From: Alphaproteobacteria bacterium
GTDB lineage: Bacteria > Pseudomonadota > Alphaproteobacteria > RS24
Length of the DNA: 47,511 bases
Direction of reading: 5' to 3'
Assembly (NCBI GenBank): GCA_029253645.1
Contig: JAQWZC010000012.1
Span: forward strand, 1-47,511
Made by a program: the position numbers and the translations under genes. Positions within the stretch are counted from its first letter, which is position 1. Every line of letters starts with the position of its first letter. The notes beneath the pieces were generated by a model. It saw nothing but the letters and a program-made list of their open reading frames with translations, was not told where the DNA came from and made no database searches. Positions 13,283 to 37,707 of the stretch are shown here, piece after piece.

Positions 13283-14911
13283 ATGAGTAGAGCCGAAGCA
13301 TTTCTTGCCGGAGCCGTGCAAATTGCCGGACCGCTTTTGCGGCGGCAAGAGCGGATTGTGGCGGTTAAACTCCACCCTGATGCGGTTTCCGTAGTGCAGC
13401 TTCACCCAACCCTTGATGATTGGGATTTGGACCGATTGGTCAGCTGGTCATTGGAGAACGCCATTGGCCGCTCGCCGGTGCAGGATAATTTCAACTATCT
13501 TGCCGACCAAATTTCCGCCGCCGCCCAAGAGGCCGATATTGACGGCGTTGATGCGGGCATCTCCATTCCACATTCTTTGTTTGATGTGCGCATTTTGCAA
13601 CTCCCCTATATGGAAGAGGACGAGCTGGCAGACGAAGCCGCCGAGCCGGAATTTTGGGAGGAGTTTGACCCTGAGCTGAGTAATTTGGTCGGGCGCGTGG
13701 TGCGCCATCAAATTCTTTATGCCAATGAGGGCGAAGACCGCATTGATGTGATGATTGCCAGCCTGCCGGTCGGTGAGTTGGAACGCTATCGCTCGCTCAT
13801 GCTGGAGGCCAATCTCATTCCGGTATTTGTCGAGAATGAGCTGTTCTCTCTGGTTAATGGCATTTACGCCCGCATGAGCACGGATGAACGCTATAAGCCG
13901 TTTGTCGCCGTGCATTTATGCCCGGGCAATAATCAGATTGTCGCGCATTATCGCGGTCGGCTTTATATGCACAAAATCAATATCTCTGATTTTGATGAAG
14001 CCCTGCTGATGGAGCTTGAGCGCGTTGATGAGGTCGAGGGTGATTTCTGGGAGGAAGTGGCCATTCGCGTCAGCGAGCAGGTGAAGCAGGCCATTTCATT
14101 TTTGGTCGAGACCTATGATGTGCCGCGCCCCGATAAGGTGATTTTGGTTTCCGAATATCGCGAGATTGAAAATTTTTACTTCCTGCTGCATGAGCGGCTC
14201 GGCGCGGCGCGGGTGGTGATTTATGATGCGATGGACGATGTTGAGGTGCCCAATGAGCATCAAAAATATGTCGATTTTTTCGCCAATCCGTCAATTTTCA
14301 CAACGGCGATGGGGCTGGCCACTCAAGGTTTGAATGTTGAAGGGCGCAGCCATGCGCATATGCATAGCCGCCTCATCTCAATGAATTTCCTCGAAGACGC
14401 GCCGCGCATTCGCCGCAATCGGCAATTGGCGGCGGTCAATCGTATTTTGTCGCTGGCCATTGTTGCGGTGATTTTATTTTCCGGCACAGTGCTGGGGGTC
14501 AATACGGTGCCGGCTTATCTGCAAACGCGCGAGGCATCGACCCAATATAATGCGGCGGCCAGCGCGGCGCGGGCCGAGGCCTTGCGACGGCAGGTGAATG
14601 AGAAAAAGCTGACCGAGATAAATCAGGTCATTACCGATATTCGCGCCAATTCGGCCAATCGCGGCTATGGCGTATTTCTGTCGAAATTACCGGCGCTTTT
14701 GCCCGCCGGTGCGGAATTGCAGAAACTTGAAATTGACGCCAAGGACGGCGTCACATTGGCCGGTTTGGCAATGGAAAATGAGGATATTAATCGGCTGAAA
14801 CGCAATTTGCGTTCGGCGAAAATCCTGCGCCGCGACCCGACTGTGGAAACCGAAAAAGAGGGCGACTTTTGGCGCTTCTCCATGACACTCACCTTGTCGA
14901 GGATGCAGTAA
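13283..14911 (+). CDS. Fused PilM-PilN type IV pilus assembly protein
   Basis: A 542-residue protein joining two normally separate pilus parts. Residues 1 to about 355 resemble the actin-like cytoplasmic ATPase PilM/MshI (IVAVKLHPDAVSVVQLHP near the start, DAGISIPHSLFDVRILQLP, then VAVHLCPGNNQIVAHYRG). A single membrane helix follows at about 387-407 (ILSLAIVAVILFSGTVLGV), then a PilN-like periplasmic coiled coil and ferredoxin-like domain (YGVFLSKLPALLPAGAELQKL). Such a chain would transmit state across the inner membrane, like GspL in type II secretion. It opens the run of five genes ending with pilC and shares one base (TAATG) with the next gene. Domain boundaries are estimates. Confidence 0.85.
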   Translation: MSRAEAFLAGAVQIAGPLLRRQERIVAVKLHPDAVSVVQLHPTLDDWDLDRLVSWSLENAIGRSPVQDNFNYLADQISAAAQEADIDGVDAGISIPHSLFDVRILQLPYMEEDELADEAAEPEFWEEFDPELSNLVGRVVRHQILYANEGEDRIDVMIASLPVGELERYRSLMLEANLIPVFVENELFSLVNGIYARMSTDERYKPFVAVHLCPGNNQIVAHYRGRLYMHKINISDFDEALLMELERVDEVEGDFWEEVAIRVSEQVKQAISFLVETYDVPRPDKVILVSEYREIENFYFLLHERLGAARVVIYDAMDDVEVPNEHQKYVDFFANPSIFTTAMGLATQGLNVEGRSHAHMHSRLISMNFLEDAPRIRRNRQLAAVNRILSLAIVAVILFSGTVLGVNTVPAYLQTREASTQYNAAASAARAEALRRQVNEKKLTEINQVITDIRANSANRGYGVFLSKLPALLPAGAELQKLEIDAKDGVTLAGLAMENEDINRLKRNLRSAKILRRDPTVETEKEGDFWRFSMTLTLSRMQ

Positions 14912-16119
14912 TGTCTGATCCGACCCCTCATCCGCAATCCGAAGCGCCGCTTTCGGCGGATGCACGCAGGCTTTTGGCTGAAATCTCAGGCGCGATTGCG
15001 CCGTCCGAGGGCGCGCTTGATATGGCGCAGATGGGCGCAGAGCCCGCGTCCGTATTGCTGACGCCGCATGAGGATACCAAGGCGCGCGCCTTTGCCGATT
15101 TGCTCAATCATATTGAGGATAGCGACGGCACATTAATGGTGGATGAGGCGGCGGCGCTTGAGGTGGCGGAGAAATATCGCAGCGAGAAACAAGCCACCCA
15201 TATCAGCCTTGATAAGGATGATTTACTGGACGAGTTCGCCGCCCCGTTAATGCACGCATCAGGGGATGCGACAGAGGCGGCATCAGCAGACGGTTTTGGC
15301 GATGGCGCGGATGATGTGATGGATGGCGCCATATCCCTCACTGATGAAGAAATCGATGCGGCTTTGGGTGATGACCCATTTGGCGAAGATGGTTTTGAGG
15401 AGACGCCCAAAGCCAAGGGCCGCTTTGGCGGTTTGCTGTCGCGCTTTCGCGCCGGTGCAGGCGGGGTGACGCGGCTTATCGGCGTGCGTAATGCAGCAAC
15501 CGCCTATGACGCGCAATCGGGCGCATCGCTTTTGCCCTATACGATTATTCGTGCCGTTATTTTGGTGCTGGTGGCGGCCGTGCCACCGGCGGTCAATCTC
15601 GCCATTATCCAACCGCAAATTTCCGATAATGGGCGCAAGCTCACGCAAATTCGCGGCTTTGAGGCGCAAATGTCGGAAAATAAAAAACTGGCTGACAGCA
15701 TGGCAGTGCGGCTGTCGGCGCTTGAGCAAGACGCCAAGCGGCGCATTGACAAGCTGATGCCCAATGCGGATTTGGAAGTGTTGTTCAATCGCTATGTGTC
15801 GGCTTTGCAGAAATATGATATCGAATTGCAGGGTTATAATTTATCCTCCATGGATGACCGCAAAGTGGTTATCGGCAATCGCGTGCAGCAGACAAATCTG
15901 GTCGAGCTTAGTCTTGAAGGGCGCTATGATGTCTATGTCGATATTCGCAAAGTTTTTGTTGATGAGTTGAAAATTGCCAGTGTGCTGAAAGAGACAATGG
16001 ACCCGCAAACCGGAAGCCCGAACCTATCCATTAAGGCCAGCCTGATGGTGCCGACCAAGCGCGACTATGATGCGGAATTGGACGACCCGACCAGAAAACT
16101 GGCGGAGGCGAAGAAATAA
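14911..16119 (+). CDS. PilO-like inner-membrane alignment protein with acidic N-terminus
   Basis: A 402-residue bitopic protein. The first ~170 residues are acidic, low in aromatics and probably disordered. A basic stretch (KGRFGGLLSRFRAG) precedes the single membrane helix at about 210-233 (TIIRAVILVLVAAVPPAVNLAI). After it come a periplasmic coiled coil (IRGFEAQMSENKKLADSMA) and a ferredoxin-like C-terminal domain, the layout of PilO/MshJ. Usual PilO is about 200 residues, so the cytoplasmic half is a large addition that might contact PilB or PilM. ATG 14911 overlaps the previous stop by one base and ends in a TAATG with the next gene. The name rests on layout and position more than on strong sequence identity. 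Confidence 0.75.
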   Translation: MSDPTPHPQSEAPLSADARRLLAEISGAIAPSEGALDMAQMGAEPASVLLTPHEDTKARAFADLLNHIEDSDGTLMVDEAAALEVAEKYRSEKQATHISLDKDDLLDEFAAPLMHASGDATEAASADGFGDGADDVMDGAISLTDEEIDAALGDDPFGEDGFEETPKAKGRFGGLLSRFRAGAGGVTRLIGVRNAATAYDAQSGASLLPYTIIRAVILVLVAAVPPAVNLAIIQPQISDNGRKLTQIRGFEAQMSENKKLADSMAVRLSALEQDAKRRIDKLMPNADLEVLFNRYVSALQKYDIELQGYNLSSMDDRKVVIGNRVQQTNLVELSLEGRYDVYVDIRKVFVDELKIASVLKETMDPQTGSPNLSIKASLMVPTKRDYDAELDDPTRKLAEAKK

Positions 16120-17750
16120 TGCATGTGGTGATGAATTTCCCCCCCGGCCTTTTGCGGGTCGCGCTGCTCGCCTTGGCGATGGGCGGATATGGCACGGCCT
16201 TCGCGCAACCCGCCAAACCGGCTCAAATGACACCGGCGGCAGAGACCGCAATTCGCGAAAACCCGAGCGCGGCGACACAAAATATCGCGGCGGCCGACCC
16301 GCAAGACCCGTTTGTGCGCGGGCTGAAGCGCTTGGACGAGCGTCTGCGCCTGCAACGCGAGGCCGAGGAATTGGCGCGCAAAGCATTGGCATTGCAACAA
16401 GGCACGGGCGTCACATCAGCCGATGGCGAGGTGGTGAGCGAGGAAGAGATTATTATTCCGGCACCGATTTCTGACCCGGATTTCTTCACCGCTTTTGCGG
16501 CGCGTAAATATCGCCTTGACGGGCTGGTGCTGTCTAAGCCGCACAGCCAGCCGGTGATTCATGTTTTGCAAGAAGTTGAAAAACCGACATCCGGCCAGCT
16601 CTTTTGGTCGGGGCGCGAACGGCGTTGGGTGTATCAGCGCAACCAGGGCGAGACCCTGTCTGCCATTGCCCGCAAGCTGGTGATGCAAGTGGATGATATG
16701 CTGGCCATGAATAATGCGCTGCGGGAAAGCCAGCTTGCCGACCCGATGCGCTTTTATGTCAGCCCGCGCGATAATGGCCCGCTTACCCATATTTTATTGC
16801 GCAGCGACACGCTGGCCAAGCTGGCAAAAATTTATGATACGGATGTGCCCCGCTTGCGCGTGCGTAATGATTTGGGCGCAGATGATAAGCTGGTTTTGGG
16901 ACGGCGTTTTCTCATTCGCGAAAAAGCCATTAATGACCGGCTGGCTCGCATGGCCGTGCCCGCACCGGTTCAAATTGATGACAGCCATTTGACCAAGGCC
17001 CGCATGCCTTATGCGCGGCTTGGACAATTTGCCGATGAGAAAAAAGCTATGCGCGGCGCGCGCGAATTTTTTGCCAAATATTATGAGCTGATGGATAGCG
17101 ATATTTCACTGCGCCGCGAAAGCGACGATAAGGTGAAGGGCAAGATGTTCTATAATATGGATATCGGGCCGTTGCGATCCGAGCGGCATGGCGAGGCTTA
17201 TTGTGCGCTGTTTCGCAAAGATGATTTGCCCTGTCTTGTGGTCAATCGCGTGCCCGGGCCGGAACGCGCGCGCAATTTTGACAGCCACGCCATCATCTCG
17301 GTCAGTCCTTATGTTTATTTTGACGGCGATGATGAGCTGGATAGCGGGCGCACGGATATGGCGCGCCTGACCAAGCTCGAATATTTTCTGACCGAAGGCC
17401 AAGTGCTTGGCAATGCGGAAGGGACGATTGCCAAAATCACCAATGACCGCATTATGCTGACCGATGCCAATGGCTATTTATTGACCCTGCCGTTTAATCG
17501 CATACCGGAAATTGATCCGGAAGAAAAACGCCGCGCCGCCGAGGCTGCGCGCCAAGCCGCGCTCGATAAGGCGGCCAAAGCCGCAGGGGCGGCGGTAGAT
17601 GCGGCGGGTAATATTGACCCGGATGTGCCCGGCGCTGAGGATACGGCTTTGGGCCAAAGGCTGATGAAGGGCGAGGCCACGCGGCGCGAAGGCTCGCAAA
17701 ACTTCATTAAGCAATTGGCCGAAAAGCCCAAAAAGATTGATGAGAAATAG
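16119..17750 (+). CDS. LysM-containing periplasmic protein in the PilP position
   Basis: A 543-residue exported protein. The signal peptide runs to about residue 30 (LLALAMGGYGTAFA); an in-frame ATG at 16131 would shorten it by 4 residues. A LysM-like peptidoglycan-binding motif (YQRNQGETLSAIARKLVMQV) lies near residues 172-215, with a second weaker one after it (LLRSDTLAKLAKIYDTDVPR). An unrecognised central domain follows. Near the C-terminus, GTIAKITNDRIMLTDANGY looks like the beta strands of PilP/GspC that bind the secretin, before an Ala/Lys-rich tail. PilP normally lacks LysM. The sequence suggests a link between peptidoglycan, the PilMNO platform and the secretin; that role is inference. 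Confidence 0.7.
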   Translation: MHVVMNFPPGLLRVALLALAMGGYGTAFAQPAKPAQMTPAAETAIRENPSAATQNIAAADPQDPFVRGLKRLDERLRLQREAEELARKALALQQGTGVTSADGEVVSEEEIIIPAPISDPDFFTAFAARKYRLDGLVLSKPHSQPVIHVLQEVEKPTSGQLFWSGRERRWVYQRNQGETLSAIARKLVMQVDDMLAMNNALRESQLADPMRFYVSPRDNGPLTHILLRSDTLAKLAKIYDTDVPRLRVRNDLGADDKLVLGRRFLIREKAINDRLARMAVPAPVQIDDSHLTKARMPYARLGQFADEKKAMRGAREFFAKYYELMDSDISLRRESDDKVKGKMFYNMDIGPLRSERHGEAYCALFRKDDLPCLVVNRVPGPERARNFDSHAIISVSPYVYFDGDDELDSGRTDMARLTKLEYFLTEGQVLGNAEGTIAKITNDRIMLTDANGYLLTLPFNRIPEIDPEEKRRAAEAARQAALDKAAKAAGAAVDAAGNIDPDVPGAEDTALGQRLMKGEATRREGSQNFIKQLAEKPKKIDEK

Positions 17751-17768: not shown

Positions 17769-19523
17769 ATGACGGAATACACAAAAGATGTTGCGGATCG
17801 CGTATTGCGTATTCTTCAGGCCAGCGGTCAGGTCGATGAGGCCAAAATGACCGAGATTATGGTGCAGGCGGAATCGCGTTCTTCGCGCGCGCTGGCGCTT
17901 TTAATGGAAGCCAAGCCCGACCCTGATGACCCGAGCAAGCCCCCCGCCGCCGCGGTTGAAGAAGAATTAGTGGTCAATATTTTGTCGCGCGCTTATGCCT
18001 TGCGGCGCAAAAACCTCGCCCCCCATGAGGTGGCCAAAGACGCGTTGACCTCCGTACCCAAGGATATGATTGACCGCGAGCATATTTTGCCATTTGCCCG
18101 CGAAGGGCGGTTTTTGCGGGTGGCGACAGTGGACCCGACCAAAGCCACTTTGGCTAATCAAATTAAGGCGCTGAGCAATCAAAATGTTGAGTTTTTCCTC
18201 ATCAAGCCCAGCGAGTTTGCCGCCTGTATGGGCCATGAGGATGTGCAGGCCAGCTTGGGCCAAAAAAAGCAAGAAGCCGCCGCCGCGCCGGCTGCCGAGG
18301 CTTTGCGCCCGACACCGCGCCGCCGCTCGGCCTATGATATTGATGACCCGACCGTGGTGATTAAATTTGTCGATGATATTTTGGAGCAATCGGTCACCAC
18401 CGATACCAGCGATATTCATGTGGAGCCTTATCGCGAAACGGCGCGTATCAGATTTCGCATTAATGGCGTGCTGCAAGCGCAAGACCAGTTTTCCGATTTC
18501 CTGTTTCATAATTATCTCGCTGTCATTACCCGTTTCAAAATTTTGGCCGATTGCGATATTGCCGAAAAACGCCTGCCGCAAGATGGCGCGATTACCTTTA
18601 AGGCGCCCGATGGCGAGGATGTCGATACGCGGTTTAATGTGCTGCCGGGCAAAAATGGCGAGCGCATTTGTATCCGCCTGCTGAAAGGCGACCCGTCGCT
18701 CTCGATTGAGAAAATCGGTTTCAAAGAGGCGGATTTGAAAAAACTCATCGACGCCATTACCGCGCCGCAGGGCATGGTGCTGGTCACCGGCCCGACCGGC
18801 TCGGGCAAAACCACAACGCTTTATGGCGCGCTGCAACATATTAATGACCCGGGCACTAATATTATGACCGCCGAAGACCCGGTCGAATATTATTTGGAAG
18901 GCCTCGGGCAAACCCAAGCCAATGAAAAAATCGGTCTGTCCTTCTCCTCTATTTTGCGCGCCTTTTTGCGCCAAGACCCTGAGGTGATTTTGGTTGGTGA
19001 GATTCGCGACCAAGAGACGGTGGAGATTGCCGTTAAGGCGGCGCTGACCGGTCACTTGCTGCTCTCGACCCTGCACACAAATGACGCCATTTCGACGATT
19101 TCGCGGTTGCTCAATATGGGCGTGCCAAGCTTTATGATTTCTGCCGCTTTATCGCTTGTGGTGGCGCAGCGTCTGGCGCGTAAAAATTGCCCCGATTGTT
19201 TGGTGCCAGATGATAATGCGACGCCTGCCGCGCTTGAATATATCGGCTTTAGCGCCGAAGAAGTGCAAGCCATGCAGCCGCGCAGGGGCAGTGGCTGCGC
19301 CAGTTGCGACGGCACGGGCTATAAGGGCCGACAGGGTATTTATGAAGTTTTGCGGGTGACGCCGGAGGTTGAGGCGACGATTTTGAAGCAAGCGCAAGCG
19401 CCGGAAATTCTGGAAGCGGCGCGGGTCGATAATTTTATGACCATGCAAGAAGTCGGACGCGATTACATTAAAGATGGCGTTTTATGCCTTGAAGAGTTTA
19501 CACGCGTGCTGGTGGTCAGTTAG
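17769..19523 (+). CDS. pilB: Type IV pilus extension ATPase PilB / GspE family
   Basis: A 584-residue hexameric secretion ATPase driving pilin polymerisation. The N-terminal ~150 residues form a MshEN/GspE-N domain. The core has Walker A GPTGSGKTT at 341-349, the Asp box TAEDPVEYYLEGLGQTQ, Walker B ILVGEIRDQETVEIA and the His box LLSTLHTNDAISTI. A zinc-binding module follows with CPDC (Cys474, Cys477) and CASC (Cys510, Cys513). GspE and PilB cannot be separated by this gene alone, but the downstream PilT and pilin genes favour a pilus. It starts 18 nt after the LysM gene and precedes pilC by 8 nt. Confidence 0.93.
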   Translation: MTEYTKDVADRVLRILQASGQVDEAKMTEIMVQAESRSSRALALLMEAKPDPDDPSKPPAAAVEEELVVNILSRAYALRRKNLAPHEVAKDALTSVPKDMIDREHILPFAREGRFLRVATVDPTKATLANQIKALSNQNVEFFLIKPSEFAACMGHEDVQASLGQKKQEAAAAPAAEALRPTPRRRSAYDIDDPTVVIKFVDDILEQSVTTDTSDIHVEPYRETARIRFRINGVLQAQDQFSDFLFHNYLAVITRFKILADCDIAEKRLPQDGAITFKAPDGEDVDTRFNVLPGKNGERICIRLLKGDPSLSIEKIGFKEADLKKLIDAITAPQGMVLVTGPTGSGKTTTLYGALQHINDPGTNIMTAEDPVEYYLEGLGQTQANEKIGLSFSSILRAFLRQDPEVILVGEIRDQETVEIAVKAALTGHLLLSTLHTNDAISTISRLLNMGVPSFMISAALSLVVAQRLARKNCPDCLVPDDNATPAALEYIGFSAEEVQAMQPRRGSGCASCDGTGYKGRQGIYEVLRVTPEVEATILKQAQAPEILEAARVDNFMTMQEVGRDYIKDGVLCLEEFTRVLVVS

Positions 19524-19531
19524 GTTTTGTC

Positions 19532-20764
19532 ATGACATTTTATGCGTATGCCGGTCTGCAAGGCAAAAAAAAGGTAAAGGGGCAAGTCGAAGCCAATAGC
19601 ATGGCGCGGGCGCGCTCGGCTTTGCGCCAGCAACGCATTAAGGTCAAAAAAATTAAAGAGGTGAAGGATAAAAAATCCGGTGCGCTGGATATTCAAATCA
19701 CCTGGGGCCCTTTCGGCTCGATACCGTCAAAAGAAATTTTGATGTTCACCAAAAAACTATCCACCATGATACGCGCCGGATTGCCGATTTTGGACGGGCT
19801 GGTGATGGTGGCGGGGCAGACCAAAAACCCGAATATGAAGCGCGTCACCCAGCAAATGATTTCGACCCTCAATGATGGTAAGCCGCTCTCTGCCGCTTTT
19901 CGCGAGCATGAACGCCATTTTGATAATGTCTATCGCAATATGATTGAGGCCGGTGAAGTGTCGGGCATGTTGGATAAATTCATCGACAAGCTGGTGGAAA
20001 TTCTTGAAAAGCAGCAAAAGATTAAAGCCGGTATCAAATCGGCCATGTTCTATCCGGTGACATTGATTACCGTCTCGCTGGGCATCTCGCTTTTCATGCT
20101 GACCAATGTGGTGCCTACTTTCCAGGAAATGTATGAGGGCATGGGCATTGCGCTGCCCGGCCCGACACAGGCCATTGTTGATGCCAGTGAATGGATCGCC
20201 GATATTCGCAATGTGGCCGGGGTGTTTGCGGTTATTTTCGGCACGATTACGTTTCACAGCCTGATGACCAAATATGTTCATCCCTATCGTTATTTATGGC
20301 ACATGCTTTTGCTGAAATTGCCGCTCTTCGGCGGTATTATCATGATGGCTGTGGTGGCGCGCTCATCTTTGCTGATGGCCAATCTATTTGCCGCCGGGGT
20401 CAGCGTGTTGGAAACCCTGACCGTGGCCTCCACGGTTACGTCCAATACATTATTCATGAATGCGTTTGGGCGCGTGAAACGCGACGTCATGACCGGTGCG
20501 GAATTATCGTCGCTTTTTGCCAAGGAAAAAGTCTTCCCGATTGAGCTGTCGCAGCTCATCGCGGTCGGTGAGCGCACCGGTAATATGGAAGAAATGCTGA
20601 ACTCAATTGCCAATTATTATGAAGAAGAATTCGACGCGCTGGTTGAGGGGCTTTCAACCGTTATCGAACCGGTGATGATTGTGTTTGTCGGTGGCCTTAT
20701 CGGTATGATGGTGGTGGCGCTTTATCTGCCCATCTTCTCGGCCGGTGATTTGGCCGGCGGCTAA
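19532..20764 (+). CDS. pilC: Type IV pilus inner-membrane platform protein PilC / GspF family
   Basis: A 410-residue polytopic protein that couples the PilB and PilT motors to pilin. It begins with the small PilC N-terminal domain (FYAYAGLQGKKKVKGQVEA), then two T2SSF repeats. The first starts near FTKKLSTMIRAGLPILDGL and includes YRNMIEAGEVSGMLDKFIDK; the second includes LLMANLFAAGVSVLETL and QLIAVGERTGNMEEMLNSIA. Three membrane segments are evident, the last near the C-terminus (VMIVFVGGLIGMMVVALYLP). It ends the first pilus block. Its stop overlaps the end of the convergent small Cys-protein gene by 4 nt. Confidence 0.94.
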   Translation: MTFYAYAGLQGKKKVKGQVEANSMARARSALRQQRIKVKKIKEVKDKKSGALDIQITWGPFGSIPSKEILMFTKKLSTMIRAGLPILDGLVMVAGQTKNPNMKRVTQQMISTLNDGKPLSAAFREHERHFDNVYRNMIEAGEVSGMLDKFIDKLVEILEKQQKIKAGIKSAMFYPVTLITVSLGISLFMLTNVVPTFQEMYEGMGIALPGPTQAIVDASEWIADIRNVAGVFAVIFGTITFHSLMTKYVHPYRYLWHMLLLKLPLFGGIIMMAVVARSSLLMANLFAAGVSVLETLTVASTVTSNTLFMNAFGRVKRDVMTGAELSSLFAKEKVFPIELSQLIAVGERTGNMEEMLNSIANYYEEEFDALVEGLSTVIEPVMIVFVGGLIGMMVVALYLPIFSAGDLAGG

Positions 20765-27564: not shown

Positions 27565-28134
27565 ATGGACATTCGCGCAAAAAGCGAACGAGGCTTTAGC
27601 CTTATTGAACTATTGGTTGTTGTTGCAATTATTGGTGTATTGGCCGCCGTTGGCGTTGTCGGTTACCAAGGTTATATCGACAGCACTAAAAAATCCGTCA
27701 CCGATGCAAACGCTAAAGCGGTTCATCAGTGGTTGGTTAACACAAAAACCGTCCGCGCTGCGGGCATCGACACCGATCCGGTGGCGTGTAAATCAGCAAC
27801 ACTGACATCAGCCACCACGGCTGCTGCAGCGGTTGCGACAACCGGTTGCTTCGGTCAATTGGGCGCTGCAGGCGGTCCTTTCGAAAGCTTCAAAAACCCG
27901 TATTCGACTTCGCGCACCGGCTCAACAGCCATTCGCGCAATTGCCAGCTCAACTGCTGTTGTTGGCGACGGTACGGCTGATTGCACAACCCTCGATGCGT
28001 CATCAGAAAATGGTGACATTATCGTCCGCGTAAGCGGTGCAGGCGCAAGCCACATTGACGTGTATTTCTGCGCCAAAGAAGGCGACAGCGACGGTAAACT
28101 CACCAAGCGTGACACCACCATCGCTAACTTCTAG
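27565..28134 (+). CDS. Type IV major prepilin (PilA-like)
   Basis: A 189-residue prepilin. The 10-residue basic leader ends in Gly before the class III site G|FSLIELLVVVAIIGVL, with Glu at mature position 5 as required for assembly. The rest is small, Ala/Thr/Ser-rich, with Cys at four positions (VACK, GCFG, DCTT, YFCAK) that could form two disulphides including the C-terminal D-region loop. AGAGGAGAG lies just before ATG 27565. A short dyad, CGCGC-TTAG-GCGCG at 27528-27541, is in the leader. A terminator follows directly, so the pilin can be transcribed alone at high level. The Ser/Thr-rich body suits glycosylation by the next gene's product. Confidence 0.92.
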   Translation: MDIRAKSERGFSLIELLVVVAIIGVLAAVGVVGYQGYIDSTKKSVTDANAKAVHQWLVNTKTVRAAGIDTDPVACKSATLTSATTAAAAVATTGCFGQLGAAGGPFESFKNPYSTSRTGSTAIRAIASSTAVVGDGTADCTTLDASSENGDIIVRVSGAGASHIDVYFCAKEGDSDGKLTKRDTTIANF

Positions 28135-28157
28135 TCGCGATTTCATGTTTGAAATTG

Positions 28158-28189
28158 AGAGCGCTGTGCTTGCACGGCGCTCTTTTTTT
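28158..28189 (+). terminator. Rho-independent terminator after the major pilin gene
   Basis: AGAGCGCTGTGC (28158-28169) pairs with GCACGGCGCTCT (28172-28183) with a single wobble, and the tight 2 nt centre would open to a small loop. Seven T residues follow from 28183. It lies 24 nt after the pilin stop and 18 nt before the next gene, so pilin mRNA would mostly end here. Confidence 0.85.
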
Positions 28190-28206
28190 GTTTTGAGAGT
28201 TCCACC

Positions 28207-30027
28207 ATGCGCCTGCCGCATTTTCTAAAATCCCCGCTCAGTTGGAGCGCCATATTATTGTTTGGCGTGGCATTTAATCTGCATGTTGCGGATATGGGTG
28301 AGACTTATGTGGCGCGCAATTTAAGCGCCTGGGCGGTTATCGGCGTCAGCTTGATGGCCTTATGGGGGCCAAAGCTGCGGCGCGGGGTGCTGGCTTGGTC
28401 GCCGCTTTGGCTCGGCGGCCTCTTACTGCCGCCTATTGGCGCGGTTTTTGTGCTTTTGGTCAATATTCTCGGCGGCTTTGATGGCTTGCATATGGGACAT
28501 TATTTTCTGCCCGTCATCTTGCTGGCTTTCGGGCTTTTGGTCTTGGGATTGTTGAACCATATTGAGGGCGATAAAGCGCCCGATATGGCGGTGCTGTTCA
28601 TGCTTATCGGGCTGGCATTGATGCCGCAATATGCGCTTTATCTCGTGCAAGAAAACCCGCTTTTCGCGCAAAGCGCATCTGTGGTGGGCGGGGTGCCATA
28701 TTGGCTGAGCAAGCCGTCGGCGGGTTTTGGGCAATATAATTTGCTTGGTTCGATGATAGCCAGCCTGCTGGTTTTGGGCGTGGCGGCATTCACCCTTATC
28801 CCAATGCGCCGCGGGCAGCGCCTCATAATCGCCGGATTGCTGGTTTTTTACGGGCTTGATTTACCCTTTGTGCCTAGCAAAACCGCGCTTTTGGGCGTGA
28901 GCATCGGCCTCGGCCTTTTGGCAATTTATGTGTTTTCAGTTGCGCGCGCCCCCGCCGCCAAGCGCAATTTTGTAAAATCTGTGGCCCTGCTTTTGGTCAC
29001 TTATGCGGCAGCCTATGGCTTGGCTTCGGTTTTGGGGCTGGACGCAGAATTGGCCGACCGGTCGCTTGACGCCAATCAAAACTCGTTTCAAACGCGCTTC
29101 ACCATGTGGGTGCTGGGCTTTTGGGGGTTTATCGAAGCGCCGGTTTTCGGTCATGGGCTGGGCAGTTATTTGTCGGTCTATATGGCGCAATTCGCGCAAA
29201 ATAGCGGCACCGCAGATTTATATTTCTTCCCGCTGGTCACCGTGCCGCATAATTTGTTCATTCATATTCTGTCTGAAACCGGCCTGTTTGGGCTGGCGGT
29301 CATTATGGGGCCGTTTATCTGGCTGGGCATTCGGGTTTTTCAAACCCATAAAAACCGCTGGTTGATTGCCGCTTTGGTGTTTCCCATTTTGCTGCATACG
29401 CAATTTGAATATCCCTATATGGCGTCGGGCGCGCATTATTGGATGTTTGCCATTGCCCTGGTGATGGGGCTGAGTTTCATACCCGAAACGGATAGACAAG
29501 CCACTGATGACGAAGCGACCCTGCCGCGCCATGCCGTTTTGACAAATAAAACAGCGCGGCGCGCGGCCCTCACTTTGCTGAGTGCGGCTTGTGGTGTCGG
29601 CATTTTTACTATGGGCGCGCTGATGGCGGATGTGCACCAAGCCAGAATGTCTTATAGCCGCGCCACCCAAATGTCGTTGGAACCCTATATAAAAGACCGC
29701 GCCAATGCGGCGGCATTACGCCATCCGATTTTGGGCGAGCGTGTGCGCGCTTTGAGCAATATTTATTTGATAAATCTTATATATAAAGAGCAGCGATTTG
29801 AGCTGCTGCGCCCGCTCGCGCTGCCCTATTTTGAGGCGCATGTTTTGCCGCAATATCCTGCGCCGCGCATATGGCGATTGGCGTTGCAAGTCTATGTGAC
29901 GCTTGGCGAGTTTGATAAAGCGCGCGGGCTGATTGATGAGATAGAGCGTTATATGCCGGAAAAAGCCGCCTCATATCGCGCCGGATTGGCACAATATTTG
30001 GCGCAAATGCCTAATCGTCCTCAATAA
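28207..30027 (+). CDS. PglL/TfpO-like O-oligosaccharyltransferase (Wzy_C family)
   Basis: A 606-residue inner-membrane protein with about ten to twelve hydrophobic segments in residues 1-470. A periplasmic-loop motif, VPHNLFIHILSETGLFG near 348-364, is the H-N-x-x-x-x-x-x-x-E-x-G-x-x-G pattern of Wzy_C/PglL enzymes, whose His is needed for transfer. The C-terminal ~130 residues are soluble and resemble Wzy_C_2. Such enzymes move lipid-linked glycan onto Ser/Thr of pilins, or polymerise or ligate O-antigen; the position straight after the pilin favours pilin glycosylation. It sits behind the pilin terminator. The last 17 nt overlap the convergent pilT gene. Confidence 0.82.
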   Translation: MRLPHFLKSPLSWSAILLFGVAFNLHVADMGETYVARNLSAWAVIGVSLMALWGPKLRRGVLAWSPLWLGGLLLPPIGAVFVLLVNILGGFDGLHMGHYFLPVILLAFGLLVLGLLNHIEGDKAPDMAVLFMLIGLALMPQYALYLVQENPLFAQSASVVGGVPYWLSKPSAGFGQYNLLGSMIASLLVLGVAAFTLIPMRRGQRLIIAGLLVFYGLDLPFVPSKTALLGVSIGLGLLAIYVFSVARAPAAKRNFVKSVALLLVTYAAAYGLASVLGLDAELADRSLDANQNSFQTRFTMWVLGFWGFIEAPVFGHGLGSYLSVYMAQFAQNSGTADLYFFPLVTVPHNLFIHILSETGLFGLAVIMGPFIWLGIRVFQTHKNRWLIAALVFPILLHTQFEYPYMASGAHYWMFAIALVMGLSFIPETDRQATDDEATLPRHAVLTNKTARRAALTLLSAACGVGIFTMGALMADVHQARMSYSRATQMSLEPYIKDRANAAALRHPILGERVRALSNIYLINLIYKEQRFELLRPLALPYFEAHVLPQYPAPRIWRLALQVYVTLGEFDKARGLIDEIERYMPEKAASYRAGLAQYLAQMPNRPQ

Positions 30028-31048
30028 CGATAAGCCCCTGTTTTTCCAACTCATCGACATATTTTTCCATCGTCATCATGCCGTATTGCGCGCCGGTTTG
30101 CATGACGGTGGCGATTTGCGGAATCTTATCTTCGCGAATGAGGTTTTTAATCGCCGGCACGCAGACCATCACCTCAAACGCACCGATACGCCCGCCGCTT
30201 TTGCGCTTCATTAACTGCTGCGTCATCACCAATTGCAAAGATGACGCGACCATAGAGCGCGCTTGGGGTTGTTCCTCAGCCGGAAACGCATCAATGATGC
30301 GGTTAATGGTTTCGGCCGCGCCTGATGTATGCAATGTGCCAAACACCAAATGGCCGGTCTCGGCGGCGGTCAAAGCCAAGGAGATGGTTTCATAATCGCG
30401 CATCTCACCAAGCAGCAAAATATCGGGATCTTCGCGCAACGCGCCTTTCAACGCCGAGGCAAAGCTCATCGTATCGCGGCCCACTTCGCGCTGCGAGATA
30501 ATCGACTTAATCTCCGAATGCACAAATTCCACCGGGTCCTCAATGGTGATGATGTGCTCGGCGCGCTCGCGATTGATTTTATTAATCATTGAGGCCAGCG
30601 ATGTGGATTTACCCGAACCTGTCGGGCCGGTGACCAGCACCAGACCTTTCTTTTCGACCAGCACATTATGCACGGCGGCGGGCAGACCAAGCTGGTCAAT
30701 ATTCGGCACTTCAGTGACAATGGTGCGGCAAATCAAGCCCCAGCCATTCAGCGTGTGATAGCCATTGGCCCGAAAGCGCGCGCCATTTACCGTCACCGCA
30801 AAGTCAATATCTTTGGTGTCAACAAAATCGTCATAAAGCTCTTGGTCCAATTCGTGCTGAAAAACGCCGTCCAGCATCTCATGGGTAATCGGGCAGTCCT
30901 GCATAATCTGAATTTCGCCATTGACCCGAATGGCCAACGGGCTGCCCGAGCGCATATGGAAATCCGATATACGATATTCCTTCGGCAATTCGTCAAGATA
31001 ACGATAAACCGGATTATCTGCGGGGATGGGTTTTTCGGATTGTGACAT
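30011..31048 (-). CDS. pilT: Type IV pilus retraction ATPase PilT
   Basis: A 345-residue PilT/PilU-family ATPase that depolymerises the pilus. The N-terminal PAS-like domain has DFHMRSGSPLAIRVNGEI. Walker A is GPTGSGKST at 141-149, the Asp box IITIEDPVEFVH, Walker B ILLLGEMRDYETISLALTAA, and the His box VFGTLHTSGAAETINRIID. A C-terminal zinc module is absent, as expected for PilT. PilU is the main alternative, as AIRNLI is replaced by AIKNLI and only one copy is seen. Its presence shows the system is a retractile pilus rather than type II secretion. It is divergent from pilD. Confidence 0.92.
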   Translation of the reverse strand: MSQSEKPIPADNPVYRYLDELPKEYRISDFHMRSGSPLAIRVNGEIQIMQDCPITHEMLDGVFQHELDQELYDDFVDTKDIDFAVTVNGARFRANGYHTLNGWGLICRTIVTEVPNIDQLGLPAAVHNVLVEKKGLVLVTGPTGSGKSTSLASMINKINRERAEHIITIEDPVEFVHSEIKSIISQREVGRDTMSFASALKGALREDPDILLLGEMRDYETISLALTAAETGHLVFGTLHTSGAAETINRIIDAFPAEEQPQARSMVASSLQLVMTQQLMKRKSGGRIGAFEVMVCVPAIKNLIREDKIPQIATVMQTGAQYGMMTMEKYVDELEKQGLIVIEDD

Positions 31049-31113: not shown

Positions 31114-31156
31114 GAGGCGATGTGCTGTCCGGCCGTCACTGTTGCGGGTAAACTTC

Positions 31157-31945
31157 ATGGCCAATGGTCTATATTTAGCGGCATTTATCGCGCTTATGGG
31201 TGCCTGTCTCGGCAGTTTTGCCAATGTGGCGGCGTTGCGGACATTGCGCGGCGAGGATTGGGTGCGCCAGCCCTCAGCCTGTTTTCATTGCGGCAAAAGG
31301 CTCGGTTTCCTCGCCAATCTGCCGATTTTCGGCTATGTGCGCCATGGCGGACACAGTGCCTGTTGCGGCCAAAAATTGCCGCGCCGTTATGTGCTGGTTG
31401 AAGTGGCCTTTGCCGCGCTGCTGGTGCTGGCCTTCCGGCAACTCGAGCTGCCGGTGTTTTTAGTCTTTGTGCCCTTTCTCATTCTGATGGTGGTGATTTT
31501 TCTTACCGATATGGACGCCTTTATCATTCCCGATTGGGCCAGTTTGGGCGGTTTGGCTTTGGGGCTGGGACTGGCGCTGTTTGGCGCGCCCGGCTTGCCC
31601 GTGCTCGCTGATGCATTGCTGGGCGGGGCAGGCGGCTTTGCGCTGATTTATGGCATTAATACCGCGTATAAATTATGGCGCGGCCATGACGGTATGGGCT
31701 TTGGCGATGTCAAGCTGATGGCCATGCTGGGGGTCTGGCTGGGGCCGTGGGCGCTCCTGCCGATTCTGTTTGCCGCCAGCATGAGCGGCGCGGTTTTTGG
31801 CCTTATGGCGATTTTGGCTACGCGGCTGCAAAAGGCTGAAAATCGGCCTGATCAACCGGCACAAGTGCCTTTTGGCTGTTTTTTGACCCCGATGGCGCTG
31901 GTCTGGCTGTTGTTTGCGCCACAATTACTGTCTGCCGCGCAATAA
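31157..31945 (+). CDS. pilD: Prepilin peptidase PilD (A24 family)
   Basis: A 262-residue polytopic aspartic peptidase that cleaves prepilin leaders and N-methylates the new Phe. The two catalytic Asp are Asp118 in FLTDMDAFIIPDW and Asp183 in the GxGD motif MGFGDVKLM. The N-terminal cytoplasmic loop has the first Cys pair CFHC (42, 45), but the second CxxC is degenerate, reading SACCG with Cys69-Cys70 adjacent. A TTG at 31142 could start 5 residues earlier; ATG 31157 gives the usual short N-terminus (YLAAFIALMGACLGSF). It should process the four prepilin-like proteins in this window. Confidence 0.9.
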   Translation: MANGLYLAAFIALMGACLGSFANVAALRTLRGEDWVRQPSACFHCGKRLGFLANLPIFGYVRHGGHSACCGQKLPRRYVLVEVAFAALLVLAFRQLELPVFLVFVPFLILMVVIFLTDMDAFIIPDWASLGGLALGLGLALFGAPGLPVLADALLGGAGGFALIYGINTAYKLWRGHDGMGFGDVKLMAMLGVWLGPWALLPILFAASMSGAVFGLMAILATRLQKAENRPDQPAQVPFGCFLTPMALVWLLFAPQLLSAAQ

Positions 31946-32029: not shown

Positions 32030-32428
32030 ATGAACACGTTGCGGACCGAAGATGATTACAAGCGCGCCATTAAAGAATTATTGGGGCAGGCGGAAACCAG
32101 TCTTGAGGCAGATTTAGAAACCCGCGACGGCGCGCAAAAAGCCGCCATGTCCGAAAATGACATTCAGCATTTTATGCGCGGCCTTGATTTGGCGATTACC
32201 GAGGAAGCGACGATTGCGCTGCGCGCCGAGTTTTTGCGTTATTCCAGCGTGTTTGACACCAAGCGCTCGCAAGACACGATTAAGCTGGCGGTCGCGCAAG
32301 TCATTCGTCCGATGATGGAAGAATGGATTAACCGCTATATGGCCGATATTGCCCGCGAGGTGATTACCGAGGCGATTGGCAAGATTACTGAGGTGCGGGC
32401 CACCGGAAATTTACGGCGTCCTAAATAG
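32030..32428 (+). CDS. PopZ-like (DUF2497 C-terminus) small protein
   Basis: A 132-residue, mostly helical, charged protein with no membrane helix. The C-terminal part IRPMMEEWINRYMADIAREV (about residues 94-113) matches the DUF2497 helix of the alphaproteobacterial polar organiser PopZ, where LRPML-WLD-NLP--VE--V is the self-assembly region. The first ~60 residues (acidic, Glu/Asp-rich) could be the partner-binding region. PopZ marks cell poles and gathers client proteins. The position 34 nt upstream of the secretin suggests it places the pilus at the pole, which is inference. GAGGATAAAG precedes ATG 32030. It is shorter than Caulobacter PopZ and could instead be an uncharacterised relative. 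Confidence 0.65.
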   Translation: MNTLRTEDDYKRAIKELLGQAETSLEADLETRDGAQKAAMSENDIQHFMRGLDLAITEEATIALRAEFLRYSSVFDTKRSQDTIKLAVAQVIRPMMEEWINRYMADIAREVITEAIGKITEVRATGNLRRPK

Positions 32429-32462
32429 TCAGGCCGGATTGGCCACTGACGGAGAAAAGTTT

Positions 32463-35400
32463 TTGCGTAGAGTTACAGTCCCTGAAAAAGTCATAAGGCT
32501 CGCTATTGTGGGGGCGCTATGCGTCAATGTTTATGGCTGTGGCGCACGTACCGGTCGCGATTTAAGCATTTCGGGGGCGGTGCAACGTTTTGACGACCGC
32601 CGCGCCGCCGTGCGCGCCGAACAAGCCGCGCTTGACGGTATTGACAGTTCGCGCGTCTCGCAATTAAAACCCCTACCGCCGCGCCGCGAATTATTGCAAG
32701 TGCGGGTGCCGGGTAAAATCGAAATTGACGAGATTGCCGATGGCGTCGTCGCGCAATCCATGACGGAAATGTCATTACAGGGGCTGAAGCTGTCGCGCGC
32801 GGGCACAAGCAATGGCGCGCTGACCTCCAGCCGACGGTCTTTGCAGAGCCAGCTTAAGGCGATTGATAAACGTGCCGAAACCATTCGCCGCCAAAGACGC
32901 GGCGTGCTGGCCGGTTACAATACGGAAAAATTATTGCTCGACCAGATGGATATGCGCCATTCAAAATCGCGCGACCTGACCTTGCAGGGTTTTAAAATCG
33001 CCAATGAGAAATTATTGCAGGGCTTTATCGCCGATTTGGAAGCGCAATATGCCCAAGCCGAGCCGACGACGATTATTGGCCTGAGTGATAATAATGAGCT
33101 GGGCGCATTGGCCCTGTTCGGGCGCAATGAATTGGCGCGCAAGGATGAATATGTCTCGCTCGAGAAAAGTTTTCTGTTTGTCGGCAATGATGTCACCACT
33201 GGCGTTTCTTTGGGGCGCATGGATGATTTATCCGATGAGGTCGGCTCGCGCAGTCTGAGCGTCAATCTATCGGGTCTGCGATTGCCGACCGCGCTGAAAT
33301 CTTTGGCGCGCTCCATTAATATGCAGGTTTATTTGTCACCCGCCGTCAATGCCGCGCCGCAAAAAGTCAGCCTCGATATTTCGCGCGCCGATGCGCTCGA
33401 TATTTTCGATATTCTGATTGATAATTACGGGCTGGCTATGGCCTATGACCGCAAAATGGGCGTGGCGCGTTTTTATACACGCGCCGAATTTAACGAGCGC
33501 GTTGATGATGCGGTGGCGGCGGCTGAATTGCATAATCGGCGCGCTCGCAATTTACGCAAAATAAGCTCGCTGGAAAATGACACGGCGGCCTTGCGGCAGA
33601 TTTATCAGAATTATTTTCAACATCCCGACGAAGCCGGACGGGTGCGCTCCTTGACCAATGACGCGATTATTGAGGACGACCATTCCCCGGCTGTGGCCAG
33701 CGCGATCGTGGCATTTAAGGAAGCCGCGCTGGAAAATGAGCGCGCCCTTGACGCGCTCGACCTCGAGGCCAGCACAAAACGCCAAGAGCAGGCGCGCAAA
33801 ACCCAGACCGCCAAATTTGCGCTGGAGGATGTCGATCAGGCATTGGCCATGATGACGACTGAGCGCGGCAGCAAGCAAAAATTACTCGATGATATTGCCG
33901 CGCGCCTCACCGCTGCCCAAATGGCCAATGCGCCGGTTGATGCGGCGGGCAATGCCGTGCCGCAAATCGGCGGCGGGGTTGATGAGGCGACCAATCAAGC
34001 GGGTTTCCTCAATATGCCCGATGCTGATGAATTGCGCGGTCGCGTGGTGCGCGACGCGAATTTGCAAACCACCGAGCCGATTTATACGGAAAAATTCACC
34101 ATTTATAATAGCGAAGGCGCGGCCAGTTGCAGCGGCGACAGCGCCGACCGCGTGAGCGAAATTCAAGCCGAATTGGCCAGCTATTTTGAGCAGCTTTATC
34201 CCGATGAGATGATTGCCGCAGAAAAAGCCTCTGAGCAGCGCGCCGAGACGGCGCGTTTGGCGCGCGAAAAACAAGAGCGCGACGCCGAGGCGCGGTCGCG
34301 TTTGGTGAACGCGCAAGGCCTGCCGCTTTTCGACCCGTTGCAAGAAGCCCTGGCCAGCGCCAATGTCGCCGATATTACCAGCGATATTGCCGGTGATGTT
34401 GCCGCCAGCCCGCAAGCGGCTGACCCGGCCGAGGCGAGTGAAGCCGGAGAGACGACAAATGGCGCGACCCCGCAAGCGGGCGCAGCGCAAGAGGATGCGG
34501 CGGCACCAGCTGAGCCGCCATCAACCATATTCTTGACCGACTCGGCGTTTCGCCGTCCTGCCGTTACCGCGGTGGGCGACACGATTATTATTTCCGGTTT
34601 CCGCCATGATATTGAATTGGTATCGGAGCTGATGGAAAGTTTCGACAAGCCGGATAAGCAGGTTTTGGTTGAAGTATTTATGGTGAATGTTGCGAAAAAC
34701 TGGCAGCGTCAATTACAAAGCAAGCTTGAAAATGCGGTGCGGACAACGGCCAAAACCGATGCCGATATCTCGGCCTTGCCGGGCGCGACGCTGGGCGAAT
34801 TGCCGGGCTTGGTTGAGGTGCGCGACAATGCGCTTATCGGTGTGCAGGGCGCGCTGAAATTTGCTGACCGCGCCGTGGCGGCCAATAGCTTCACCTTAAA
34901 TAATTTCCGCCTCGGTCTGGCCTGGACGATTGATTTCATGGAAAGCAATAGTCTGGGGCGCAAGATTTCAAGCCCGACCATTTTGGCGCTTGATGGCTGT
35001 GAGGCGCAGATTGAAAAATCAGAAACACGCTATCTGCCGGTCATCGCAACTTCCGCGCCGATTGTGACGCCGGGCGGGCAAACCGTGCCGGGCGAAACCA
35101 CCACAACTTATGAGCCGCGCCAAGCCACATTGAGCCTGAATGTGACGCCGGTCATTAACCCGCTTAACGACCATGTGCGGCTGAAGATTACCTTTAATGA
35201 TGACTTCTTTGTCACCATGGACGCCAATTCCGATAAAATTCAAAGCCGCATAAATACCGAGTTTATCGCCGCGCCGGGTGATGTGATTGTGCTGGCCGGG
35301 CTTTATACGGAAGATAATTCGAAAACCCGCAACGGCCTGCCGGGCCTTACCGGCATTCCGATTTTGGGCAGTTTCCTCGGCACCAGTTCAGACGGCAAAG

Positions 35401-35498
35401 CCTCGCAAGAAATGGTGATATTCTTGGCACCCGAAGTCATCACGCCTAAGGCCGGTGAAATGCCGGTCAATTCAGCCCGCTATTATGACCTCAATTAG
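32463..35498 (+). CDS. Outer-membrane secretin, MshL/PilQ-like lipoprotein, unusually long
   Basis: A 1011-residue protein starting at TTG 32463: GGAGAAAAG lies 8 nt upstream, no ATG occurs near, and this start yields a lipoprotein signal ending in NVYGC. Residues about 265-345 form an STN/N0-like domain (SVNLSGLRLPTALKSLARS). Residues about 345-690 are helical, Ala/Glu/Arg-rich and partly low complexity. The C-terminal ~300 residues are the secretin pore: KQVLVEVFMVNVAKNW, NLGRK-type ISSPTILALDGCEAQI, ATLSLNVTPVINP, and the final IPILGSFLGTSSDGKASQEM-LAPEVITP. MshL is about 550 residues, so the middle insert is a large addition. The pilV-like start lies inside its last codons. Confidence 0.9.
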   Translation: MRRVTVPEKVIRLAIVGALCVNVYGCGARTGRDLSISGAVQRFDDRRAAVRAEQAALDGIDSSRVSQLKPLPPRRELLQVRVPGKIEIDEIADGVVAQSMTEMSLQGLKLSRAGTSNGALTSSRRSLQSQLKAIDKRAETIRRQRRGVLAGYNTEKLLLDQMDMRHSKSRDLTLQGFKIANEKLLQGFIADLEAQYAQAEPTTIIGLSDNNELGALALFGRNELARKDEYVSLEKSFLFVGNDVTTGVSLGRMDDLSDEVGSRSLSVNLSGLRLPTALKSLARSINMQVYLSPAVNAAPQKVSLDISRADALDIFDILIDNYGLAMAYDRKMGVARFYTRAEFNERVDDAVAAAELHNRRARNLRKISSLENDTAALRQIYQNYFQHPDEAGRVRSLTNDAIIEDDHSPAVASAIVAFKEAALENERALDALDLEASTKRQEQARKTQTAKFALEDVDQALAMMTTERGSKQKLLDDIAARLTAAQMANAPVDAAGNAVPQIGGGVDEATNQAGFLNMPDADELRGRVVRDANLQTTEPIYTEKFTIYNSEGAASCSGDSADRVSEIQAELASYFEQLYPDEMIAAEKASEQRAETARLAREKQERDAEARSRLVNAQGLPLFDPLQEALASANVADITSDIAGDVAASPQAADPAEASEAGETTNGATPQAGAAQEDAAAPAEPPSTIFLTDSAFRRPAVTAVGDTIIISGFRHDIELVSELMESFDKPDKQVLVEVFMVNVAKNWQRQLQSKLENAVRTTAKTDADISALPGATLGELPGLVEVRDNALIGVQGALKFADRAVAANSFTLNNFRLGLAWTIDFMESNSLGRKISSPTILALDGCEAQIEKSETRYLPVIATSAPIVTPGGQTVPGETTTTYEPRQATLSLNVTPVINPLNDHVRLKITFNDDFFVTMDANSDKIQSRINTEFIAAPGDVIVLAGLYTEDNSKTRNGLPGLTGIPILGSFLGTSSDGKASQEMVIFLAPEVITPKAGEMPVNSARYYDLN

Positions 35499-37011: not shown

Positions 37012-37641
37012 TTAGGCCGCTTGTGCCGCGAATTCGCGCGCTTTCAGCACATAGACTTCCGGCGCGATAAGACCCGCCTCATAAAGCTCGCGCAAGGCCA
37101 GCATATTGCGCTCAATCTCGGCCAGACGCGCACATTCACCGGCATTTTTCATGGTGCGCGCATCGGGCGCTTCAAAGCTATCGGCAATAATGGCAGGCTC
37201 TTCGGCCTTGTCGCGATGCAGCCATGAGGCGCTGAAAAATTTCGATTTGCGGGGCGGCGGCGCTTGCCCGACTTTCGGAATGGTCAGGTCGTCAATATCG
37301 TCCATCACATCATCATCCATGTCGAATTGATGCGCGCCATTATTATCCAACGGGTCGCCCAATGGCGTCTCGGTCTGCTCCGGCACGCCATCGGCTTCAA
37401 AGACCAGCGTCTCGCCTTGCGCGCCGGCATCATCGGCCATATCCAACTCAATATCATCAGGCTCCATATCGTTAGGTAAGGGCGCGTTGACCATGCCGGC
37501 CGCGTTATCGCTTGCGACGGCGGTGTTTTTACGGCGCATGCGGCGCGATAGAATGACCAGCAACATCAGCACAAGCACGGCAATACCGGCACCGATAAAC
37601 AGTGTGCCATTTTGCTCAAACATGCGAGCCAGAATGCGCAT
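37012..37641 (-). CDS. Single-pass membrane protein with acidic linker and SHOCT-like C-terminus
   Basis: A 209-residue protein of unknown function. One membrane helix near residues 14-32 (LFIGAGIAVLVLMLLVILS) is followed by a basic stop-transfer stretch (RRMRRK). An Asp/Glu-rich linker of about 100 residues (EPDDIELDMADDAG, DMDDDVMDDIDDL) comes next. The C-terminal motif LRELYEAGLIAPEVYVLKA resembles SHOCT, a short oligomerisation helix. ATG 37653 is an alternative start; 37641 has GGAAAG just upstream. It opens the operon with the PilW- and PilX-like genes, which suggests a pilus-related role such as a cytoplasmic adaptor. That is inference. Confidence 0.7.
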   Translation of the reverse strand: MRILARMFEQNGTLFIGAGIAVLVLMLLVILSRRMRRKNTAVASDNAAGMVNAPLPNDMEPDDIELDMADDAGAQGETLVFEADGVPEQTETPLGDPLDNNGAHQFDMDDDVMDDIDDLTIPKVGQAPPPRKSKFFSASWLHRDKAEEPAIIADSFEAPDARTMKNAGECARLAEIERNMLALRELYEAGLIAPEVYVLKAREFAAQAA

Positions 37642-37707
37642 GGTTCTTTCCATAGATTAGACTTTAAGCCAAAAAAAGATGATTCTCACGCGAAATATCG
37701 GCGCGGG

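Follow-up and report, generated by a model that had tools for sequence, protein, structure and literature searches.

A probable PilP with putative peptidoglycan-binding LysM and SPOR modules in an alphaproteobacterial type IV pilus operon

The gene in the pilP slot

The DNA analysed here (hereafter the window) is a stretch of 47,511 nucleotides, contig JAQWZC010000012.1 of assembly GCA_029253645.1, from an uncultured alphaproteobacterium of the lineage RS24. It contains a type IV pilus operon of the order pilMN-pilO-X-pilB-pilC, in which X, the gene at 16119-17750 on the forward strand, occupies the pilP slot and is the candidate pilP considered in this work. As stated in the original prediction, made from the sequence alone, the gene lies between the PilO-like gene and pilB and is coupled to the former through TAATG: its start is located inside the stop of the PilO-like open reading frame (ORF; ...AAATAATGCATG...), and 18 nucleotides separate its end from the start of pilB at 17769. 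The signal peptide and the LysM motifs named in the same prediction were likewise recovered, the former as a hydrophobic N-terminus with an AFA-Q-type end. By regular expression no lipobox was found in any of 21 slot proteins (15 from the family of this genome, hereafter the own family, and 6 from other families); the motif was present in 18 of 30 classical PilPs and is therefore not universal among them. A SPOR domain at residues ~297-375 and PilP-like N-terminal segments at residues ~61-150 had not been named before. The parts of the protein are as follows.

16119..17750 (+), gene in the pilP slot, 543 amino acids: signal peptide, DPF motif, predicted HR strands 1-2, LysM, LysM, SPOR, predicted HR strands 3-6 and Ala/Lys-rich tail
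16119..16205 (+), putative Sec signal peptide, residues 1-29, no lipobox (sequence, regular expression)
16299..16334 (+), PQDPFVRGLKRL motif, residues 61-72, with DPFVRGL invariant in 15 homologs
16482..16568 (+), predicted HR strands 1-2, residues ~122-150, ...KYRLDGLVLSKPHSQPVIHVLQ (profile tests)
16623..16736 (+), LysM 1, residues ~169-206 (second Pfam stretch; an MltD match, E 0.0078, spans residues 169-206)
16806..16916 (+), LysM 2, residues 230-266 (Pfam)
17007..17243 (+), SPOR domain spanning residues ~297-375 and including Cys362 and Cys372 (profile comparison, fold similarity)
17358..17516 (+), predicted HR strands 3-6, residues ~414-466 (profile comparisons)

LysM and SPOR modules

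LysM was recognised by Pfam (PF01476, E 6e-8, 33 bits against a cut-off of 20.9) in two stretches of the protein and in all 15 aligned homologs; the alignment omits G007, where two ORFs lie in a contig with undetermined bases. The SPOR region could be aligned in all 15 own-family sequences, Cys362 and Cys372 being invariant, and matched a profile of 28 alphaproteobacterial SPOR domains (18 of the own genus, the remaining 10 spread over four further alphaproteobacteria) with an hhalign probability of 96% and E 1e-9. In the AlphaFold2 model of residues 289-472, usable for SPOR only, this region is drawn as beta-alpha-beta-beta-alpha-beta with a block pLDDT of 52-64. Foldseek run with this model placed the SPOR domain of CwlC at rank 1 (E 0.009) and that of RlpA at rank 3 (E 0.016), both with a probability of 1.00. 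In VIA-align the model (pLDDT ~60) was superimposed on the Pseudomonas aeruginosa RlpA SPOR domain with denuded glycan at Z 9.1 and a root-mean-square deviation of 1.8 over 76 residues, and on CwlC at Z 7.8, the remaining rows, apart from one discussed below, showing Z 6.7 or less. Sequence and fold thus agree in pointing to a SPOR domain, the confidence of the model being modest. A PDB sequence search with the SPOR-HR part matched nothing relevant, and the full family profile, searched up to E 10, returned mainly LysM proteins and two unrelated entries, with no PilP among them.

PilP similarity of the C-terminal part

A resemblance of the C-terminal segment to PilP/GspC had been proposed earlier, and its PilP half held: residues ~418-448 matched the second half of the PilP HR domain with an hhalign probability of 63% when the full-length profile was used and of 80-90% with C-terminal profiles (31 columns), and a hidden Markov model of 30 classical PilPs recognised the window protein with E 2e-4 in a 21-sequence set. 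The GspC half did not, since T2SSC as the identity of the C-terminus reached an hhalign probability below 4%; T2SSC (PF11356) had no match in the own genome, the same search being positive in 51 of 100 Pseudomonadota. The Pfam PilP family (PF04351) likewise had no match in the own genome, and this search was positive in 91 of 150 Pseudomonadota and in none of 14 control genomes. A second profile, composed of eight PilPs with a DPF-type motif and run on the whole own genome up to E 10, gave a single match, namely residues 422-449 of the pilP-slot gene (E 0.003). It also recognised the slot genes of the relatives G013 (1.2e-4), G264 (3.5e-9) and G452 (2.8e-6), the classical genomes G132 and G096, and G049 (7.8e-33) and G157 (2.6e-48), which are themselves members of the profile; the slot proteins of G373 and G317 were missed, so the profile is not exhaustive. 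A separate pilP elsewhere in the genome, named in the original prediction as its possible undoing, was found neither with PF04351 nor with this second, non-exhaustive profile.

The likeness to strands 3-6 of the HR domain is seen at the sequence level. Structure prediction of the C-terminal part, proposed earlier, succeeded for the SPOR fold but not for the HR part, and fold support for the latter is absent because AlphaFold2 failed both on the whole protein and on this part.

Position of the first two HR strands

The HR domain has six strands in two sheets of three (PMC9239104). The HR similarity probably does not form the single C-terminal block expected at first; strands 1-2 appear to be located ~265 residues ahead of the others. 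The DPF motif at residues 61-72 likely corresponds to the RDPFxSYL-type motif that non-lipoprotein PilPs carry, and a DPF/NPF motif is present in all 12 PilPs of the DPF-type comparison set. When the uncut family alignment was compared with these 12 PilPs, residues 414-447 matched best, on profile positions 66-99 (probability 73%), and the second-best match placed residues 63-143 at positions 9-62 (probability 1.3%, P 0.04); the two matches are colinear and adjacent on the profile and stand ~270 residues apart in the protein.

In a sliding test each 36-residue window starting at residues 28-373 (n=346) was joined to the C-terminal part and ranked against a PilP profile. Ranked by the 12-member profile, the best 15 of the 346 windows without exception covered YRLDGLVLS, a segment that 28 windows include; ranked by the 30 classical PilPs, 13 of the best 15 began at 105-122. 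The f136 family behaved similarly: against the classical PilPs its top 15 of 244 windows all started at 73-95, around YTLKG at 104, and against the 12-member profile ranks 1 and 3-11 of 244 covered YTLKG. Neighbouring windows are not independent, so that the ranks count as support and yield no P value. Joining the two halves extended the match to PilP to 116 columns with E 1.2e-8, compared with 3e-5 for the best uncut match. Against the 30 classical PilPs joining brought no gain in local hhalign (89.6% for the C-terminal part alone, 86% joined), but the global score rose from 43% to 70%; in the uncut comparison with them the DPF motif was the third match (P 0.42). As concerns a complete six-strand sandwich, the profile tests mostly favour a split, the comparison with classical PilPs is weaker, and the AlphaFold2 model of the HR domain is unusable. 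The HR domain is probably split, with strands 1-2 predicted ~265 residues upstream of strands 3-6 and the modules inside the domain. A split domain in G373 was also sought by the sliding test and is unsupported there.

The secretin and other possible wall anchors

The absence of an AMIN domain from the secretin of the window, suspected from the sequence, was borne out, as none was found by Pfam up to E 10. The same search detected AMIN in none of seven operon secretins (that of G525 lies outside the scan) and in all three classical PilQ N-termini used as a control. Within the secretin an N0-like region at residues 292-375 scored 9.1 bits, the best of 80 shuffled controls reaching 1.0. The secretin is long (1040 amino acids), as ~290 residues precede the N0-like region (window 32376-33250, +) and another long stretch precedes the secretin core at 855.

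In the own genome one protein carried AMIN at E 0.001, an AmiC amidase-like one as judged by eye, and a single other protein carried LysM at the same threshold. Since the latter looks NlpD/DipM-like by eye, no FimV- or TsaP-like LysM protein was seen in this search. Searched up to E 10, neither Pfam nor NCBIfam matched the pilP-slot protein itself to the FimV family, and the general Pfam and NCBIfam scans gave no match to a TsaP-type architecture, no direct TsaP profile comparison having been made. TsaP combines LysM with a FlgT-like C-terminal part.

That the PilP equivalent of this operon carries putative peptidoglycan-binding modules is well supported by its sequence, considering its slot, the LysM and SPOR regions, the PilP-like strands, its being the sole PilP-like place found, the failure to find AMIN in the secretin and the lack, at E 0.001, of any other LysM protein except the NlpD/DipM-like one. 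The gene probably represents pilP in a type IV pilus system (PilMN-O-P-B-C), with a LysM-LysM-SPOR insert of ~265 residues interrupting its predicted HR domain after strand 2 and before strand 3. This architecture would be the reason why pilP looks missing by Pfam in the own genome.

The pilP slot in relatives

The pilP-slot gene was found in 16 of the 80 genomes searched, all of the own family. Seventeen of the 28 genomes of this family possess pilMN, and 16 of these carry the slot gene; in the exception, G018, pilMN lies 416 bases from the contig end. None of the 11 family genomes without pilMN carries it, several of these genomes being incomplete. A search with the pilMN profile was positive in 11 of 385 Alphaproteobacteria; in G011, G458 and G531 no more than a short pilM remnant is left, and these three were excluded from the pilMN-bearing genomes. 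In the remaining eight the pilP slot reads as follows.

G000 and G013 (own family): LysM-LysM-SPOR
G373 (344 amino acids): SPOR-like region, no LysM
G264 and G525: three LysM stretches, no SPOR seen
G452: two LysM, no SPOR seen
G049: contiguous PilP, no module (Pfam E 6e-14)
G317: short protein, no module, no Pfam match, PilP-like by eye

The SPOR-like region of G373 was found via the own-family profile (E 3.3e-24). At the 30 classical PilP loci, which come from the PF04351 search, the PilP match is contiguous, in frames of 147-208 amino acids from the first Met, with no insert, and nine stretches chosen from the same search for longer PilP frames (two of them among the 30), read by eye, showed no such insert either.

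In G011, a near-complete genome of the same genus, the corresponding locus (L151, G011:C2:14000-26000) holds no pilMNO-P-B-C block and only a ~52-residue pilM remnant. By look, it keeps prepilin, ligase, PilT, PilD and DUF2497-like genes; PilB and PilC were not sought genome-wide.

Weighing of the alternatives

A number of results speak against a pilP with modules inside its HR domain. PF04351 listed three of the 15 homologs, with a best E of 0.14, and none reached its cut-off; this cut-off is a detection threshold, which also misses the module-free slot protein of G317. The PilO label of the preceding gene is weak: apart from its position, the gene has no Pfam match and resembles the PilO profile only faintly (probability 2.6%, P 0.018 over 96 columns). 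AlphaFold2 returned unusable models for the full protein (with 6 sequences, mean pLDDT 36, pTM 0.22) and for the HR part (block pLDDT 23-42). As to SPOR, Pfam's own model does not list the pilP-slot gene, the SPOR profile alone misses the G373 region (0.4 bits), the best Foldseek matches are all weaker than E 0.001, and the VIA-align row 6ozd, an exported protein not named SPOR, scores Z 8.4. The N0 match of the secretin is modest, with 9.1 bits in the window, 3.7 in G013 and 3.2 in G373. The first HR half alone is not significant (hhalign probability 0.2-1%), and in the uncut comparison with the 30 classical PilPs residues 114-137 are the fifth match only (P 0.73); the addition of two alphaproteobacterial PilPs moves them to fourth place (P 0.41). 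In the sliding test of G373, a single sequence, the expected windows ranked at best 15 of 171 with the 12-member profile and were absent from the top 15 with the 30 classical PilPs. Finally, it was originally suggested that the anchor may have moved into the PilP equivalent; the modules in the slot protein accord with this, but a strict swap does not hold, since in G049 and G317 the slot protein has no modules and the secretin has no AMIN either.

Some of these results would be accounted for by a PilP in which the modules precede an uninterrupted C-terminal HR domain, residues ~390-396 (HAIISVSP) being strand 2 and YRLDGLVLS an unrelated piece or a duplicate; the mechanism would be the same, with no insertion. 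Indeed, hhalign prefers a contiguous match in G373 (residues 207-271 on positions 40-100), the C-terminal match of f136 spans positions 56-117 and so already takes in strand 2, AlphaFold2 draws a strand at 390-394 with low confidence, and the N-terminal segment ranks low in the uncut comparison with classical PilPs. This arrangement is nevertheless unlikely, though it is the strongest competitor, considering that the uncut own family places positions 9-62 of the DPF-type PilPs at residues 63-143, that only YRLDGLVLS windows fill the top 15 sliding ranks, and that by eye nothing resembling HR strand 1 lies between SPOR and residue 414. The modules might also be structural spacers without glycan binding in what is merely a long PilP, as their variation between lineages could suggest; we find this improbable given the LysM in all 15 own-family homologs, the SPOR region aligned in all of them, and the SPOR model, which is closest to the RlpA domain solved with denuded glycan.

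It is still less credible that the pilP slot is occupied by a FimV/TsaP-like peptidoglycan-binding accessory protein, with the true PilP lost or escaping detection and the C-terminal likeness due to chance. LysM is the sole Pfam family listed for the pilP-slot protein, and TsaP is a LysM protein of type IV pilus machines; so are FimV and TapV (PMC5285504, PMC7214476). Against this stand the PilP profile, which finds this gene only in the genome and finds the slot proteins of G013, G264 and G452 more strongly, the HR half matched with a probability of 63-90%, the DPF motif, and the absence of a FimV family match.

Known systems and a possible mechanism

According to PMC5285504, P. aeruginosa PilP joins PilNO by its N-terminus and the secretin N0 domain by its HR domain, and the pilus machine is placed through peptidoglycan recognition by the AMIN domain of PilQ and the LysM of FimV. 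The protein described here shares with the classical PilP of the type IVa alignment complex (PDB 2ivw, 2lc4, 3jc8) the slot after pilO, the DPF-type motif followed by HR strands, and the expected N0 partner. It differs in its predicted insert and in the lack of a lipobox, classical PilP being contiguous, without insert, encoded in frames of 147-208 amino acids and often provided with a lipobox. Its nearest precedent is GspB/OutB and GspAB of type II secretion, in which an N0-binding HR domain and peptidoglycan attachment are combined in one protein, as is proposed here (PMC9239104). OutB has a transmembrane helix and a polyampholyte C-terminal extension that binds peptidoglycan, and GspA has a separate periplasmic peptidoglycan-binding domain; LysM or SPOR inside the HR domain is not described in the available part of that source, and the GspC-type similarity is weak here. 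A sub-threshold T2SSB match (E 0.044) was registered in G373. PilQ AMIN likewise sets peptidoglycan recognition in a structural part of the machine and governs midcell/polar placement in P. aeruginosa (PMC5285504), but it sits on the secretin and was not found in the seven secretins of these operons. FimV and TapV share LysM with the protein studied, but are separate proteins with TPR parts, for which the available parts of the sources describe no HR strands (PMC5285504, PMC7214476).

If the modules are inserted as predicted, the secretin-binding HR domain would itself carry glycan-binding arms, of which LysM would grip the glycan backbone and SPOR would read denuded (septal or polar) glycan. 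Acting jointly, they would position both the inner-membrane alignment complex and the secretin at one common site in the wall and hold them there mechanically, a task that in classical systems falls to PilQ AMIN domains, FimV or TsaP. The binding of N0, PilNO and peptidoglycan by the pilP-slot protein and its anchoring role are what we infer from its architecture; PilP would apparently have taken over the AMIN job of PilQ, and the cassette could steer assembly to division sites. In a broader form, for which the chances seem to us even, the loop joining strands 2 and 3 of the PilP HR domain would be an insertion site for interchangeable peptidoglycan-binding cassettes in alphaproteobacterial type IV pili, be it LysM-LysM-SPOR, SPOR alone, two to three LysM or no cassette at all, making the joint both a wall anchor and a pole/septum sensor in place of PilQ AMIN, FimV and TsaP.

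The question of how a pilus machine is threaded through the peptidoglycan and held there under large pulling forces is open, the answers so far being separate proteins or the AMIN domain of the secretin. If true, the present reading would put a wall anchor at the joint of the inner-membrane and outer-membrane parts and suggest recruitment via denuded glycan at division sites; since different cassettes occur at the same slot across lineages, the idea is testable with small recombinant proteins. No description of LysM or SPOR modules inside PilP was found in the searched open-licence literature, of which parts were available, and other papers could hold one. The novelty would lie in the modules within the secretin-binding domain of PilP, the union of HR and peptidoglycan attachment in one protein being already known from GspB/OutB and GspAB.

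Other genes of the pilus cluster

The genes flanking the pilP slot and the remaining genes of the pilus machine, encoding prepilin, a PilT-type ATPase, PilD and the secretin, lie in the same window.

13283..14911 (+), fused PilM-PilN protein (PilN E 1.6e-7, Pfam; pilM E 7e-4, below cut-off, NCBIfam)
14869..16119 (+), PilO-like protein, start probably 14911 (position, weak profile match)
17769..19523 (+), PilB extension ATPase (Pfam)
19532..20764 (+), PilC platform protein (Pfam)
27565..28134 (+), prepilin
30011..31048 (-), PilT-type ATPase (T2SSE family; PilT type from sequence and length)
31142..31945 (+), PilD prepilin peptidase
32376..35498 (+), secretin, 1040 amino acids, no AMIN by Pfam, N0-like region at residues 292-375

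A small membrane protein is encoded beside the pil genes in two families (window 37012-37653, -; L133:11889-12485; L152:3934-4419); it belongs to no Pfam family over cut-off (the L133 copy lies outside that scan), and a common C-terminal motif of ~35 residues is visible by eye. Directly after the prepilin gene lies a Wzy_C O-antigen-ligase-type gene (window 27565-30027, +, prepilin included), which suggests O-glycosylation of the pilin, presumably of the PglL/TfpO-like kind. Between pilD and the secretin gene the window contains a DUF2497 gene (32030-32428, +; E 2.1e-5, below cut-off), with a copy over the cut-off in G013 (L153:11638-12030, E 1.4e-6) and another in G011 (L151:9648-10058) judged from position and look only. 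DUF2497 being the PopZ polar-hub family, a pole organiser may travel with the pilus cluster.

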